From Sulfurifustis variabilis (lineage in GTDB: Bacteria > Pseudomonadota > Gammaproteobacteria > Acidiferrobacterales > Sulfurifustaceae), in contig NZ_AP014936.1 in the NCBI RefSeq assembly GCF_002355415.1, forward strand, positions 2,418,001 through 2,482,000: DNA of 64,000 bases. The letters run 5' to 3'. Position numbers and translations under genes: made by a program. The notes below the pieces were generated by a model. That model saw only the letters and a program-made list of their open reading frames with translations. It was not told the DNA's origin and ran no database searches. Within the stretch, counting starts at the first letter, position 1, and the number at the start of each line of letters is the position of its first letter. Positions 30,395-38,049 of the stretch are shown piece after piece.

Positions 30395-31486
30395 GTGAGC
30401 ACCCCGGCCCTTGTCGAGCTCGCTCAGGAGTTCTATCGCGACGAGCTGCAGGATCACGCCACGTACACGGCGCTGGCCGGCAACGAGCGGAACCCGCAGC
30501 TGCGCGAGACGCTCGCGCGCATCGCGGGAATGGAGCTGAAGCACTCGCGCTTCTGGCGGCGTCTGCTGGAATCCCGCGGGATCGAGGCGCCGTCCTACAC
30601 ACCGGGCGCCCTCCGGCTCCGGCTCGTTCGATTCTTCCAGCGCTTCCTGAATTCGGCCTTTCTCGTCTCGATACTCGAGCTCGGGGAATCGAGCGCTTTC
30701 GCGAAGTACCTCGATTGCCTGCACACCGCGAAGCTCGACGATCGCGAGCGCTCGGAGCTGCGGGCGATCGTGCTCGACGAGATTGAACACGAGATCACGT
30801 TCCGCGACCAGTCGCGGCGGCTTGGCCTCGGCAACGTGCGCGATTACGTGCTCGGCATGAACGACGGGCTGGTCGAGATCCTCGGCGCGGTCACCGGGCT
30901 GTCCGCGGTGTACGCCGGAAACCCGCTGATCGTCGGCGTGAGCGGTCTCGTGGTCGGCGTGGCCGGAGCCATGTCGATGGGCATCGGCGCCTATGTCTCG
31001 GTGCGTTCCCAGCGCCAGGTCAACGAGGGTCTGCGGGAACGCATGGAGATTCTGTTCGACGTCGCCCCGCAGCGCGCGGTGGACGAGTATCAGGACAAAC
31101 TGGCGGAGTCGGGCGTCCCGGATGCCACCGCGCACGAGATTGCGCGCCGCGTCGGCGCCAACCGCGACGCCATCGCCCGGCTGCTGCTGCCCGAGACGAC
31201 CGAGAACGAGCTGCGTTCGGGGCTCTTTACCGGCTTCGCGTACCTCGCGGGAGTCGCGTTCCCGGTCGTGCCTTACTTCTTCGCCGCGAGCGCGTTCCAT
31301 GCGCTCGCCTTCTCCGTTCTGCTTGCCGGCCTCGCGCTCGCCGCTTCGGCGGCGGTCGTGTCCGTCCTCTCCGGCATCTCCCTGAAGCACAAGGTCCTGG
31401 AGATGATCGTGGCGGGCTTCTCGGCGGCGGGTATCGCCTATCTCTTCGGTTGGGTGATGCGGTCGCTGACCGGGATCGAGCTCTAA
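30395..31486 (+). CDS. Ferritin-like domain fused to VIT1/CCC1 metal transporter
   Basis: A 363-residue protein with two parts. The N-terminal region (about 1-138) is a ferritin-like/erythrin four-helix domain with iron-binding ligands E17, E47xxH50, E95 or E98, and E129xxH132. The C-terminal region (about 145-363) is a VIT1/CCC1-type Fe2+/Mn2+ transporter with glycine-rich helices (YVLGMNDGLVEILGAVTGLS, GVAGAMSMGIGAYVSV) and three or more further TM segments at the end. The likely role is iron or manganese sequestration or efflux. The start is GTG at 30395 with CGGAGAG upstream. Confidence 0.9.
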   Translation: MSTPALVELAQEFYRDELQDHATYTALAGNERNPQLRETLARIAGMELKHSRFWRRLLESRGIEAPSYTPGALRLRLVRFFQRFLNSAFLVSILELGESSAFAKYLDCLHTAKLDDRERSELRAIVLDEIEHEITFRDQSRRLGLGNVRDYVLGMNDGLVEILGAVTGLSAVYAGNPLIVGVSGLVVGVAGAMSMGIGAYVSVRSQRQVNEGLRERMEILFDVAPQRAVDEYQDKLAESGVPDATAHEIARRVGANRDAIARLLLPETTENELRSGLFTGFAYLAGVAFPVVPYFFAASAFHALAFSVLLAGLALAASAAVVSVLSGISLKHKVLEMIVAGFSAAGIAYLFGWVMRSLTGIEL

Positions 31487-31984: not shown

Positions 31985-33685
31985 TCACGGGGGACGGCGG
32001 GCGAGCCGGCGCCAGATCCATCCCTCCGGCGGCACTTCCCCGTGCCCAATGTAATACAGCGTACCGCGATCGAGGAGAGCGCGCTGCATGCGGACGCGCG
32101 CCCGCGAGGCGCCGGCGAACAGAAGCCGATCGCCCGCCTGCAGCACGAGACCCTCCTCCGGCAGCAGCTGCTCCTCGCCGACGCGCTGAAGCATAAGCGC
32201 CAGTCCGGGGAGGCGCTCCGAGCGTGCGCGCGGATCGCGCAGCAGGTCGCCGATGTGCACGACCCGGCCTTCGGCGATCGCCTCGTGCACCGCGGGCGCG
32301 TCCGAAGGCGTGATCTCGACCGCCCACACGTCCGGGGTCAGCCCGCCGGCCAGGGGTTCCAGCCGCGCGATCAGCTGCCGCGCCCAGTCGTTGCTCTGGT
32401 GGCGGGCGAGCCGCAGGAACTCGTTGAGCAGCGGCGTGACGAGGAGCACCAGGATGCGGGCCGCAATGACACGGGAACGCTGCATCACCAGGTCGAGGCC
32501 GGCTGCCTCGAAGACCGCGTCGTTCTTGCGCGAGTTCTGGCGCGCGACCAGAAAAAGCCGCGGGTTCAGCTCGCGCGCCGTGACGATGATCGAGAGGTTG
32601 TTCGCGTCGTCATCGGTGCCCGCGACGATTCCGACCGCGCGCTCCACGTGAGCGGCGCGCAGCGTCACGGCCTCCGTGCCCCGGCCGACCACGGTATCCT
32701 CGGGGGCCTGCGTGCGCTCGGGTTCCTTCTCCACGATCACCGTCGGCACCCCCTGGTACTTGAGGAACCGGTCCACGGCCTTGCCGAACCGGCCGAACCC
32801 GCACAGCACCCAGGTCCCGCGCGGCGGATCGAGCCGCGGCGGAAGCGGCTCGTCGGCGGGCCGCGTGAGCCACTCGTAGACGCTGTCCATGTCGGGCGAA
32901 TGGAGCGCGGTCGCCAGGCGGTCGGCGAAGACGTCGAACGGGACCACGACGGCGTCCGTCCCGAAGGACTCCATGTTGGCCTTGGTCTCGTGCGCGTCCG
33001 CACGGCACACGACCTGGATGCGCGGGTTCAGGAGCTTCGCGGTTATGGCGATGTGGAGGTTGACGCCGTCCGCGTGCGTCAGCGCCACGACGCCCCGGCA
33101 GTACGGGTGTTGCAATCCGGCCATGAGGAGCGTTTCGGGCAAGGCCGCGTCGGCGTTCAAATACGGAACGTGCCGCGGGAGGTTGGCGAAGGAGAGGTCG
33201 GTCAGCCGATCCGGATCGATGTCGACGACCACCGCGTCCAGCTCGTGGCGCGCCATCGCCTCGACGACCAGGCTGCCCGTGTCGCCGTAACCGCAGACGA
33301 CGTAGAACGGCGATGCCCGGCGCCGGACCACGGCCGCGAAACGGTTCTCCCGGATCAGCTGGCGGAAAGCCGGTTCCTGGAACGCGGCGATCAGCGCACC
33401 GATCGCATACAGCCAGGCGATCACGCCGGCGTAGAGCGAGAACATGATCCACAGGCGCTGTGCTTCGGTGAACGGATGCGGCAGCTCGCCGAAACCCGTG
33501 GTCGTGACCGTATAGGTGATCACGTAGAGCGCATGAAAGAAGCTCAGGCGATCGGGTTGACCGCGTTCGTCGATCCCGGGCATCAGGACCAGGCCGAGTA
33601 CCGCAATCGCGTACGAAACGATCAGCACCAGCAGCGGAACGCGCAGCCGGCGCAACACGATGAACAGCGTATTCTTGCGCGCCAT
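31985..33685 (-). CDS. Potassium channel/TrkA-N protein
   Basis: A 566-residue protein with an N-terminal two-TM channel module (about 15-100) that carries the selectivity-filter sequence TTTGFGE at 61-67. Two RCK/TrkA-N Rossmann domains follow, with nucleotide-binding loops CGYGDTG (131-137) and GFGRFG (296-301); TrkA-C-like segments end the protein. It is a K+-selective channel gated by cytoplasmic ligands. The ATG at 33683-33685 lies 5 bases after the stop of the DUF6394 gene, so the two form an operon. A longer frame upstream of this start runs through the DUF6394 gene and is rejected. Confidence 0.9.
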   Translation of the reverse strand: MARKNTLFIVLRRLRVPLLVLIVSYAIAVLGLVLMPGIDERGQPDRLSFFHALYVITYTVTTTGFGELPHPFTEAQRLWIMFSLYAGVIAWLYAIGALIAAFQEPAFRQLIRENRFAAVVRRRASPFYVVCGYGDTGSLVVEAMARHELDAVVVDIDPDRLTDLSFANLPRHVPYLNADAALPETLLMAGLQHPYCRGVVALTHADGVNLHIAITAKLLNPRIQVVCRADAHETKANMESFGTDAVVVPFDVFADRLATALHSPDMDSVYEWLTRPADEPLPPRLDPPRGTWVLCGFGRFGKAVDRFLKYQGVPTVIVEKEPERTQAPEDTVVGRGTEAVTLRAAHVERAVGIVAGTDDDANNLSIIVTARELNPRLFLVARQNSRKNDAVFEAAGLDLVMQRSRVIAARILVLLVTPLLNEFLRLARHQSNDWARQLIARLEPLAGGLTPDVWAVEITPSDAPAVHEAIAEGRVVHIGDLLRDPRARSERLPGLALMLQRVGEEQLLPEEGLVLQAGDRLLFAGASRARVRMQRALLDRGTLYYIGHGEVPPEGWIWRRLARRPP

Positions 33686-33690
33686 CCGGG

Positions 33691-34074
33691 TCAGCGGCGG
33701 GTTGCCGCGATCTCGATGATGAGGAGAACGACCGAGATGGCGTTCGCGAGCAGCGCCCCGCCCGAAAGCGAGACGATCGCCACCATCGCCGAGGTCGTGA
33801 TTCCGGTCCCGGCGATGTGCTCGACGAACGTCCACACGAGGGTCGCGGCGACGAGCTGCAGATCCGCGACCAGGCTGGTCGCGAGCAGCACCGCCCCCAT
33901 CTGGGTGCGGTCGCCGAACTTCAGCACGGTCGCGATGAGACTGACCACGAGCGCGGCGAACAGCTCGTAGACGTTGTGGTGCTCGGGCGTATCGATGTCC
34001 CCGAGGAAGAAACCGAAGTTGAGGGTGAGCGCCAGGACGATAAAGAAGCTGAAGACCACTTTTTCGATGTTCAT
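33691..34074 (-). CDS. DUF6394 family small membrane protein
   Basis: A 127-residue protein with about four hydrophobic helices, opening MNIEKVVFSFFIVLALTLNF and DIDTPEHHN, a sequence I recognise as DUF6394. The family has no assigned function; its position 5 bases upstream of a K+ channel gene suggests it is an accessory membrane subunit, which is inference. It is divergent from the PP2C/kinase-like gene, with about 150 bases between them. Confidence 0.85.
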   Translation of the reverse strand: MNIEKVVFSFFIVLALTLNFGFFLGDIDTPEHHNVYELFAALVVSLIATVLKFGDRTQMGAVLLATSLVADLQLVAATLVWTFVEHIAGTGITTSAMVAIVSLSGGALLANAISVVLLIIEIAATRR

Positions 34075-34228: not shown

Positions 34229-35917
34229 ATGCAGCTATTTCTGGATACCGGGCACAGCGAGCGGACGCCACGGCAGGAGCCGCCGCGCGGCACCTGCCTT
34301 GAGATCGTTCCCGAAACCGGCCGTGACGGCGGGCGCGGGGCCCTGCTCGCCTGCGCGGAGGGTATCGCCGACCGCCCGGAGGCCGAGAAGGCGGCGCGCA
34401 TCGCGATCACGGCGCTCGCCGACAGCTACTATGCGGCTCCCGAGGGATGGGCGCTAAGGCAGGCGCTGGAAGAGAGCGTGCGCGCGGCGCATCAGGCCGT
34501 GCTCGCCGGCGGCGAACGCGGCCGCGCGGCGGTGTTCGCGGCCCTGGTACTGCGTGGCCGTCGCTGGCTCGCCGCGCACGCTGGACATGCGCGCATCTGG
34601 CTGTTTCGCGATCACGAGCTCAGACTGCTGACCCGCGATCACCTGATCCCCCGCCCGAGACGCCGTCCGGAGATCGCGAAGGCACTGGGCCTCGCGAGCG
34701 AGATCGACGCCGAGTATCACTCCGGCGAGCTCGCGGAGGGCGACGTGTTCCTGCTGACGACACCCGGGGCGCACGATGCGCTGGACGCCGCCCGCATGCG
34801 CGGCGTGCTCGAGGCCGATGCGGGTGCGGAGCATATCGCAGAGACGCTGGCGACCCGGGCGCAGGAGGCCGGAGCGCCGGGCTATGCCGGCGTGTGCGCC
34901 GTGCGCGTGGAGAAGCTGCCGCCGGAATCGATCGCGGACACGCGCGAGAGCGTCGCGGATCTCGCGTTCGTGGAGCCACCCGAGGTCGGAACGATCATCG
35001 ACGGCTTCCGCGTGGACAAGCTCGTGTACCGCAGCCGACGCTATCGTATCTACAAGGCCGCCGACACGGAGAACGGTGCCACCGTCGCCCTCAAGTTCCC
35101 CGATCCGTCGTGCCGCGAAGACCCCGAGTACGCGCGCTCGTTCCTGCGCGAGGAATGGATCGGCCGGCGCGTCGACAACGCGCATCTGGTCAAGGCCCTG
35201 AGGCCGCGACCGGGCCGACGGCGTGCGCTTTACGTCGTCATGGAATACCACGAAGGCGAACCGCTCGCGAAGCGCATCCGGCGAAAGGGCGGGCTGCCTG
35301 TCGAGGAGGCATTGCGCCTCGCCGAGCAGATGCTCGAGGCCCTGGGCGCGCTGCACGGGCACGGCGTGATACACCGCGACCTGCGCGTGAACCACCTGCT
35401 CTACGACAAGGCGCATCGCCGGCTCCTGCTGCTCGGGCTCGGGGAAAGCCGGGTCGAGGCGCTGAAGGAAGGCGCGGACGGGTCGGCCACTAGCGCATGG
35501 AGCTACCAGGCGCCGGAGCTCTTCGAGGGAAAGGCGGTGAGCGAACGGACGGACATTTATTCGGCGGGCGTCACGCTCTACCGGATGATCACCGGCGAGT
35601 ACCCCTACGGGAGAATCCGCGCGCCGCGCTGGGAAGATCGCGCATACCGGTCGATGAACGAGTGGAAGCCCGATGTCCCTGAGGCCCTGGACGCGGTGGT
35701 ACGCCGGGCCTGCGAGGTCAACCCGTCCGAGCGCTATGCTTCCGTGGCGCAGTTCGCCTCCGCCCTCGCCCGCGTGGGGGCCGAGCTGTCGGGAAACCGC
35801 TACGAGACCCGACCGCACGGCGAACGCGAAACCTCGGACGGCAGCCGCTGGACGTGGGTGGTACTGGCCTCCCTGCTCGCCGGTCTTGTCGCTTACCTGG
35901 CCGTCGCCCTGAGGTAG
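34229..35917 (+). CDS. Degenerate PP2C phosphatase - Ser/Thr kinase fusion, membrane anchored
   Basis: A 562-residue protein. Residues 1-230 follow the PP2C fold but lack the metal-binding acids: ADGMGG is AEGIAD (43-48), GDSR is GHAR (119-122), SDG is TPG (178-180), DN.T is GYAG (218-221). Residues about 258-515 follow a Hanks kinase: Lys289 and HRD 382-384 remain and APE (428-430) is intact, but the glycine-rich loop is absent, the catalytic Asn position is His389, and DFG is GLG (403-405). A C-terminal TM helix (about 543-560) ends the protein. It is probably a scaffold or sensor rather than an active enzyme. Confidence 0.8.
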   Translation: MQLFLDTGHSERTPRQEPPRGTCLEIVPETGRDGGRGALLACAEGIADRPEAEKAARIAITALADSYYAAPEGWALRQALEESVRAAHQAVLAGGERGRAAVFAALVLRGRRWLAAHAGHARIWLFRDHELRLLTRDHLIPRPRRRPEIAKALGLASEIDAEYHSGELAEGDVFLLTTPGAHDALDAARMRGVLEADAGAEHIAETLATRAQEAGAPGYAGVCAVRVEKLPPESIADTRESVADLAFVEPPEVGTIIDGFRVDKLVYRSRRYRIYKAADTENGATVALKFPDPSCREDPEYARSFLREEWIGRRVDNAHLVKALRPRPGRRRALYVVMEYHEGEPLAKRIRRKGGLPVEEALRLAEQMLEALGALHGHGVIHRDLRVNHLLYDKAHRRLLLLGLGESRVEALKEGADGSATSAWSYQAPELFEGKAVSERTDIYSAGVTLYRMITGEYPYGRIRAPRWEDRAYRSMNEWKPDVPEALDAVVRRACEVNPSERYASVAQFASALARVGAELSGNRYETRPHGERETSDGSRWTWVVLASLLAGLVAYLAVALR

Positions 35918-35940: not shown

Positions 35941-38049
35941 CTACGAGGCGGTGCTTTTGATCTCTTCGACCGCCTTCATGCTCAGGCGGATACGCCCCTG
36001 CTTGTCGACTTCGAGCACCTTGACCTTCACCACCTCGCCCTCGCGGAGCTTGTCGGAGACGCTCTCGACCCGCTCGTGGGAGATCTGCGAGATGTGCACG
36101 AGCCCGTCCTTTCCGGGGAGGATGGTGACGAAGGCGCCGAAGTCCATCAGCTTCGCGACCTTGCCTTCGTAGATCATGCCGACCTCGACGTCGGCGGTCA
36201 GCTGCTGGATCCGACGGCGCGCCTCCTCGCTCGCCGCCCGATCGGCCGAAGCGACCTTGACCGTGCCGTCGTCCTCGATGTCGATCGTCGTGCCCGTTTC
36301 CTCGCACAGCGCGCGGATGGTGGATCCGCCCTTGCCGATGACGTCGCGAATGCGCTCGGGATTGATCTTGAAGCTGATGATGCGCGGGGCGTACTCGGAA
36401 AGCTCCGAGCGCGGCGCGGCGATCGCCTGGCTCATGATGCCGAGGATGTGCATACGGCCTTCTTTCGCTTGCTTGAGCGCCGCGTCCATGATGTCGCGGT
36501 TGATGCCCTCGATCTTGATGTCCATCTGCAGCGCGGTGACGCCGCCGGTCGTGCCCGCCACCTTGAAGTCCATGTCGCCGAGATGGTCCTCGTCGCCGAT
36601 GATATCGGTAAGCACCGCGAAGCGGTTGCCTTCCTTGATCAGCCCCATCGCGACGCCCGCCACCGGCGCCTTGATCGGCACGCCCGCATCCATCAGCGAC
36701 AGGCTCGCTCCGCAGACCGATGCCATGGAGCTCGAGCCGTTCGACTCGGTGATTTCCGAAACCACGCGGATGACATAGGGATAGGTGCTCATGTCGGGGA
36801 GCACCGGATACACGCCGCGCTTGGCCAGACGCCCGTGACCGATCTCGCGTCGTTTCGGGCTGCCGATGCGGCCGACCTCCCCGACCGAGTACGGGGGGAA
36901 GTTGTAGTGCAGCATGAAAGGCTCTTTGCGCTCGCCCTCGAGCGCATCGATGATCTGCGCGTCGCGGCCCGTCCCGAGCGTGGTCGTGACGAGCGCCTGA
37001 GTCTCGCCGCGCGTGAAGAGCGCGCTGCCGTGCGTGCGGGGCAGCACTCCGGTGCGGATCACGATCGGCCGCACGGTGCGCGTGTCGCGACCGTCGATGC
37101 GCGGGTGACCCCCGAGGATCCGATCGCGCACGATCCGGTACTCGAGATCGCCGACGAGCTTGAGCACCGCGTCCTTCGTGCCTTCCGCGGAACCCTCGGG
37201 AGCGAACTGGGCGACCGCCTCGGCGCGGATCTCGCTCATGCGGTCCTGGCGCGCGGTCTTCTCGGCGATCTGGTAGGCATCCGTGATCGCCTGGCTGAAC
37301 GCACCTTTGAGCGCGTCCCTGAGCCCGGTGTCCTCGGCCGGCGGCTGCCAGCCCCACGGTTTCGCTCCCGCTTCCCCGGCGAGCTCGCGGATCGCGCGGA
37401 TCGCCGTCTGCATCTGCTCGTGTCCGTACGTCACCGCGCCGAGCATCACGTCCTCGGGCAGTTCCTTCGCCTCGGACTCGACCATCAGGACGGCCTTTTC
37501 GGTGCCCGCGACCACGAGATCGAGCTGCGACGTGGCGAGCGCCTGGTTGCCCGGATTGAGCAGGTACTGTCCGTTCGCATAGCCGACGCGCGCAGCGCCG
37601 ATCGGACCGTTGAACGGCACGCCGGAGAGCATGAGCGCCGCCGAGACACCGATCATCGAGACGACGTCGGGGTCGATGTCCGGGTCGACCGACATCACGG
37701 TCACCACGACCTGCACTTCGTTATGGAAACCTTCGGGGAACAGCGGGCGGATGGGGCGGTCGATCAGGCGAGAGGTGAGGATTTCCTTCTCGGAGGGCCG
37801 GCCTTCGCGCTTGAAGAAGCCGCCGGGAATGCGTCCCGCCGCGTAGGTCTTTTCCTGGTAATCGACTGTCAGCGGAAAGAAATCCTTCCCGGGGACCGCG
37901 TCGCGCTGCGCGACCACCGTCGCCAGCACGACGGTGTCGCCCATGGCCGCCACGACGGCACCGCTGGCCTGGCGTGCGATCTCGCCGGTCTCGAGCCTGA
38001 CGGCGTGGGTTCCGTACTGAAACGTCTTCGTGACTTTCGACAAGGTCAT
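35941..38049 (-). CDS. pnp: Polyribonucleotide nucleotidyltransferase
   Basis: A 702-residue 3'-to-5' phosphorolytic exoribonuclease of the RNA degradosome. Two RNase PH domains are visible ([32 protein letters not shown]; second core with [20 protein letters not shown]), then a KH domain ([15 protein letters not shown]) and an S1 domain ([26 protein letters not shown]). It lies 9 bases after rpsO, so there is no room for the long RNase III-processed leader known from E. coli. The ribosome-binding site is GAGAGGAG directly before the ATG. Confidence 0.97.

Follow-up and report, generated by a model that had tools for sequence, protein, structure and literature searches.

Bacterial proteins in which a PP2C-type phosphatase is fused to a protein kinase were reported in 2005 as uncharacterised, among them one of Pseudomonas aeruginosa (gi 9947763; Krupa and Srinivasan, PMC1262709), and a 2025 survey found Pkinase-containing PP2C proteins mainly in the Pseudomonadota, without using the word pseudophosphatase (PMC12088040). 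A 2025 review of the bacterial pseudokinase families ActPs1-3, GLW, CP1, DYD, and DLHK never mentions PP2C (PMC12599244). Here we describe a PP2C-kinase fusion from Sulfurifustis variabilis skN76, a sulfur oxidiser of the Acidiferrobacterales with a complete published genome of one chromosome (PMC5024460). The analysed stretch, hereafter the window, comprises 64,000 nucleotides (2418001-2482000 of the single 3,958,814-bp chromosome), and the coordinates below refer to it unless another locus is named. Its coding sequence at 34229..35917 (forward strand, as are all parts of the gene) encodes a protein of 562 residues with a pseudo-PP2C, a pseudokinase, and a C-terminal membrane helix. On balance, this protein appears from its sequence to be a pseudoenzyme, selected as a non-catalytic binding or scaffold protein and descended from a bifunctional PP2C-kinase whose intact form is encoded beside narK, a gene for a nitrate transporter.

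Domains and active sites of the fusion protein

The open reading frame (ORF), its start and stop, and its motifs are as described in the initial annotation. Codon-position GC content is typical of a gene (GC3 0.85, GC2 0.51), full-length orthologues occur in 8 other genomes of the same family, and the start is supported by an N-terminus, M[PQ]LFLD, conserved across homologues. The PP2C-like domain (residues 1-245; 34229..34963) gave only sub-threshold Pfam scores (SpoIIE 0.0016, PP2C_2 0.0089), as expected of a decayed PP2C; it is identified by motif alignment, an AlphaFold model, and Foldseek matches to 2pk0 and 1txo. The Hanks-kinase-like domain (about residues 252-523; 34982..35797) matched Pkinase at 1.5e-28. 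The AlphaFold model, based on 28 sequences, has a mean predicted local distance difference test score (pLDDT) of 88 and a predicted template modelling score (pTM) of 0.82 and consists of a PP2C-like alpha/beta part and a kinase fold, with low confidence at the activation loop (407-420) and the linker (523-537). It ends in a helix of hydrophobic sequence, the membrane helix (538-561; 35840..35911). Foldseek matched the modelled fusion protein with the kinases PknA, PknB, and Stk1 and with PstP-type PP2C structures. Both folds are thus kept, as had been proposed from the sequence.

With PP2C positions numbered as in PP2C-alpha and states read against intact relatives, all five metal-binding Asp residues, the loss of which marks a pseudo-PP2C in sequence, are replaced (D38>G, D60>E, D146>H, D239>P, D282>G). 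The motifs concerned now read AEG (43-45), GHAR (119-122), TTPG (177-180), and GYAG (from 218), and the alignment places Glu44 (34358..34360) at D60 of motif 2, His120 (34586..34588) at the third-metal residue D146 of the HVGDTR motif, Pro179 (34763..34765) at D239 of motif 8, and Gly218 (34880..34882) at D282 of motif 11. On the kinase side both metal residues are gone, the catalytic-loop Asn being His389 (35393..35395) and DFG being GLG (403-405; 35435..35443). The loss is restricted to metal-binding residues, since the beta3 Lys289 of the VALK motif (35093..35095), alphaC Glu308, and Asp384 of HRD (382-384; 35372..35380) persist; APE (428-430) is kept as well. In terms of sequence, a pseudokinase lacks the beta3 Lys, the HRD Asp, or the DFG Asp, or more than one of them, and here it is the DFG Asp that is missing. 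From these residues we infer that neither half would perform canonical catalysis.

The initial annotation had identified correctly the lost metal Asp residues of the PP2C, the lost DFG Asp, which is absent from all 12 members of the clade described below, and the persistence of HRD, the VALK Lys, and APE. Its catalytic-loop substitution is real here but private to the Sulfurifustis protein, the Asn being kept in 11 of the 12 inactive members. The glycine-rich loop, which it had counted among the lost catalytic features, is indeed non-canonical (YRSRRYRIY) but is so in intact relatives too (HSGRLSTLY, HASSRSQVY); it is therefore uninformative on inactivation and was rejected as a sign of it. 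A new metal site formed by C23 and C223, both invariant in the nine members from the window's family, was likewise rejected, as the intact sisters mostly have both residues.

Order of the losses and separation from narK

Motif states were compared over 12 dead and 91 intact proteins, where dead means that the DFG Asp is lost, and a tree of 44 proteins was built with the motif columns left out. The 12 DFG-less proteins, found by searches of the same family and the same order, form one clade (support 97/97) confined to the Acidiferrobacterales. All motifs are intact in the nearest outside relatives, namely L106 of the same order and L114, L115, L132, and L133, which belong to a different family of the class. 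The dead clade and these five proteins make up one group (100/100), with the monophyly of the five uncertain (61/24). Placement is less certain for L109 and L040, which sit on long branches, and L109/L119 (G039) is the most degraded member, with a branch length of 1.78 and SFD for DFG. A broad search with one genome per species (84,980 species) left 80 loci, 71 with an intact DFG Asp and with intact PP2C metal Asp residues wherever these were covered; the remaining nine are dead and fall within the same clade. In an even sample of 369 genomes from the class, no additional dead copy came up at a cut-off of 1e-80.

The comparison of orthologues suggested by the initial annotation thus shows that the inactivating substitutions recur. 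Parsimony without regain counts one loss for the DFG Asp, four each for D38 and D60, three for D146, and five each for D239 and D282, and three members (L010, L032, L033) lack the DFG Asp yet keep D38, D60, D239, and D282, i.e., a nearly intact PP2C, so that nine of the 12 members are doubly dead. Read from this pattern, the kinase was inactivated before the phosphatase: a single loss of the DFG Asp, in the clade's ancestor, preceded several losses of PP2C Asp residues. The proteins of Sulfurifustis, G003, and G004 form a subclade (100/100) in which all five have been lost.

The intact copies are tied to narK, which turned up in 10 genomes from the order, each time with an intact fusion gene adjacent. 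The arrangements include mobA-narK-fusion (L118), nirB-nirD-narK-nasA-dmsBC-fusion (L127) and, for intact copies of clade B, narK-fusion (L144, L143, L129, L130). No narK lies beside any of the ten dead copies with a readable upstream side; L029 and L119 stop at contig edges. Upstream of dead copies there is nasA-dmsBC, with or without mobA, in L026, L031, and L131, or mobA alone in L142 and L030; the window and L117 have neither. In L026 the genes for a DUF6394 protein and a channel are followed by nasA-dmsBC-mobA and then the fusion gene, and in the window the same pair lies directly before the fusion gene, 154 bp away from it. The nasA-dmsBC-mobA block has, therefore, probably been deleted from the window. 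An intact paralogue coexists with the dead copy in nine of the 12 genomes; in those of Sulfurifustis, G003, and G004 no intact paralogue, narK, or NasA of this type was found at the thresholds searched.

Constraint and possible function of the dead copies

For the dead pair L032/L033 the nonsynonymous (dN) and synonymous (dS) divergences are 0.047 and 0.54, and 0.047 and 0.557 in the kinase domain (dN/dS about 0.08), compared with 0.035/0.54 and 0.026/0.528 (kinase) for the intact paralogues of the same two species (L080/L126). Judged from this species pair, dead kinase domains are under purifying selection. Between Sulfurifustis and its relatives synonymous sites are saturated, which precludes a dN/dS for the gene itself; its ORF is open despite this divergence, and of 2000 simulations of unconstrained change (0.4 draws per site) 2 ended with the frame still open. 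Losses are, in these alignments, enriched at catalytic positions: among 58 positions conserved in at least 95% of intact proteins, Sulfurifustis lost 9 of 15 catalytic vs. 12 of 43 other ones (p 0.03), and its relative L011 lost 10 of 15 vs. 8 of 43 (p 0.001). The idea that both activities were lost while binding surfaces were kept is, therefore, partly upheld: fold, start, and helix are under purifying selection, but the losses are separate in time, and three members combine a dead kinase with a near-intact PP2C.

In the history that we favour, the sequences show that the clade ancestor lost its DFG Asp once, that PP2C metal Asp residues then disappeared repeatedly, and that the gene came apart from narK, while the ORF stayed intact, full-length, and membrane-anchored under purifying selection. 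The PP2C half would no longer coordinate catalytic metal, and any nucleotide binding by the kinase half would be weak and independent of Mg2+. At the membrane, one or both folds may then offer a surface that binds a Ser/Thr client or partner protein and holds or shields it without (de)phosphorylating it. With the catalytic residues lost and the gene away from narK, the protein probably owes its retention to binding and not to catalysis. NarK or the intact paralogue is unlikely to be the client in Sulfurifustis, since neither was found in its genome at the thresholds searched. As initially proposed, the protein may be a sensor or scaffold that serves another kinase; the candidate partner kinase, i.e., the intact paralogue, is present in nine of the 12 dead-copy genomes but was not found in that of Sulfurifustis. 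Several observations weigh against a selected binding protein. The dead copies of the window's family evolve at 2.0 (PP2C) and 2.6 (kinase) times the rate of the paralogue (47-49% vs. 65-74% identity in the same genomes), and certain conserved non-catalytic sites have been lost too, so that constraint has clearly relaxed, although the sequences indicate that it is real. Furthermore, no partner gene is conserved beside the dead fusion, its constant neighbour being the convergent pnp (35941..38049, reverse strand, in the window), present downstream in every dead family member whose downstream side could be read. The retained beta3 Lys, alphaC Glu, and HRD Asp also leave some phosphotransfer conceivable.

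The faster rates, the recurrent and independent PP2C losses, and the disappearance from beside the gene first of narK and then of the nasA-dmsBC-mobA block would all fit a relic that became purposeless on leaving narK, with an intact paralogue at work in most of the genomes, and that is still open because its decay is recent or slow. We consider this rather unlikely: the dead lineages in which the whole gene could be read retain a full-length ORF and the membrane helix, the predicted fold is intact, the dead kinase domain of L032/L033 shows the low dN/dS given above, and the gene is retained even where no paralogue was found (Sulfurifustis, G003, G004). It is still less probable that the kinase half is active without metal in the manner of CASK, an atypical kinase that lacks the DFG Asp, keeps the beta3 Lys, and transfers phosphate independently of cations (PMC4718504). 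The Sulfurifustis protein shares this combination and keeps the alphaC Glu and HRD Asp as well, but an intact glycine-rich loop is wanting, and the beta3 Lys is Arg in four clade members and the HRD Asp is missing in L012, which argues that kinase activity has not been generally selected. CASK also lacks the catalytic-loop Asn, like the Sulfurifustis protein. A sequencing or assembly error or a wrong frame that mimics a dead enzyme can practically be dismissed in view of the complete single-chromosome genome and the gene-like codon-position GC, and is refuted by the same kind of substitutions turning up in separately assembled genomes from other genera, with the 12 DFG-less homologues forming one clade whose nearest relatives are fully intact.

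A selected non-catalytic protein, therefore, remains our preferred explanation. More tentatively, the clade may record how a dead phosphatase and a dead kinase were turned into a membrane sensor or scaffold for a phospho-client or nucleotide, along a series from a bifunctional enzyme via a pseudokinase with a working phosphatase to the doubly dead form. The clade supplies natural intact, half-dead, and fully dead versions of one protein, with the order of events, and which properties of a signalling enzyme stay useful once catalysis is lost thus becomes directly testable in bacteria.

Neighbouring genes and comparison with known systems

Upstream of the fusion gene lie a divergent DUF6394 gene (33691..34074, reverse strand; PF19931 1.2e-36) and an ion channel gene with two TrkA-N stretches (31985..33685, reverse strand), in an order (31985-34074) shared with L026; the DUF6394 protein may belong with the channel. 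A role of the fusion protein with this K+ channel was rejected: channel and DUF6394 were seen near just one other clade member, L026, and there 5.4 kb away across nasA-dmsBC-mobA. The NasA type was found in 7 of 12 dead-copy genomes vs. 4 of 45 others (Fisher p 0.0007, kinship ignored, for the 12 genomes of the dead or sister clade including the intact G050 and excluding G039). Dependence on NasA was rejected, as neither the window genome nor its two closest relatives have it; a different nas-type reductase is encoded near 2.94 Mb of the window genome, together with nirB and with NMT1-like and BPD-type transporter genes but no such fusion. Between nasA and mobA, L026 (3116-5302) encodes a 4Fe-4S ferredoxin part fused to a DmsC-like membrane anchor, a protein that might supply electrons to assimilatory nitrate reductase. 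In G003 a VIT-family gene fragment (residues 286-363 only; L117:8773-9006, reverse strand) is the immediate upstream neighbour of the fusion gene; the full-length VIT gene is present in the window at 30395-31486, 2.7 kb from the fusion gene. A promoter and terminator scan found nothing. Two other kinases encoded in the window genome (L004 and L005; G000, 0.47 and 0.53 Mb) have HLD for HRD (HLDLKLSN, HLDINPRN) and a long, UspA-like-looking C-terminal extension.

The Pseudomonas fusion (gi 9947763, which we take to be PA1782), compared by its description only, has the same domain order, PP2C then kinase. The gammaproteobacterial relatives beside narK resemble the Sulfurifustis protein in length (about 560-590 residues), in their C-terminal membrane helix, and in homology over the full length, but those compared have intact catalytic residues and an adjacent narK, whereas the Sulfurifustis protein has lost both sites and no narK was found in its genome. 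The Sulfurifustis protein thus has the PP2C and kinase folds in one chain and the membrane helix of the narK-associated family but not its intact metal and DFG Asp residues or its position adjoining narK; by its sequence it is related to this family by descent and not by active-site make-up.

Like the Sulfurifustis protein, ActPs1-3, GLW, CP1, DYD, and DLHK are pseudokinases of the Hanks fold, and several of them have a membrane region at the C-terminus; unlike it, none has been described with a PP2C. In the GLW family GLW replaces HRD, which Sulfurifustis keeps, and in DYD the beta3 Lys is Arg and the alphaC Glu absent, where Sulfurifustis retains both. With CASK it shares the lost DFG Asp and the kept beta3 Lys, although activity has been reported for CASK and the Sulfurifustis protein is known from its sequence. 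TAB1, an activator of TAK1, is PP2C-like and has no phosphatase activity; it resembles our protein in its inactive PP2C fold but is eukaryotic, has no kinase domain in cis, and has a known partner. In the titles and abstracts that searches of the open-licence literature brought up, no doubly inactive PP2C-kinase fusion was encountered, an absence there that is no proof. The doubly dead form is thus probably an unreported variant within the known family of PP2C-kinase fusions.
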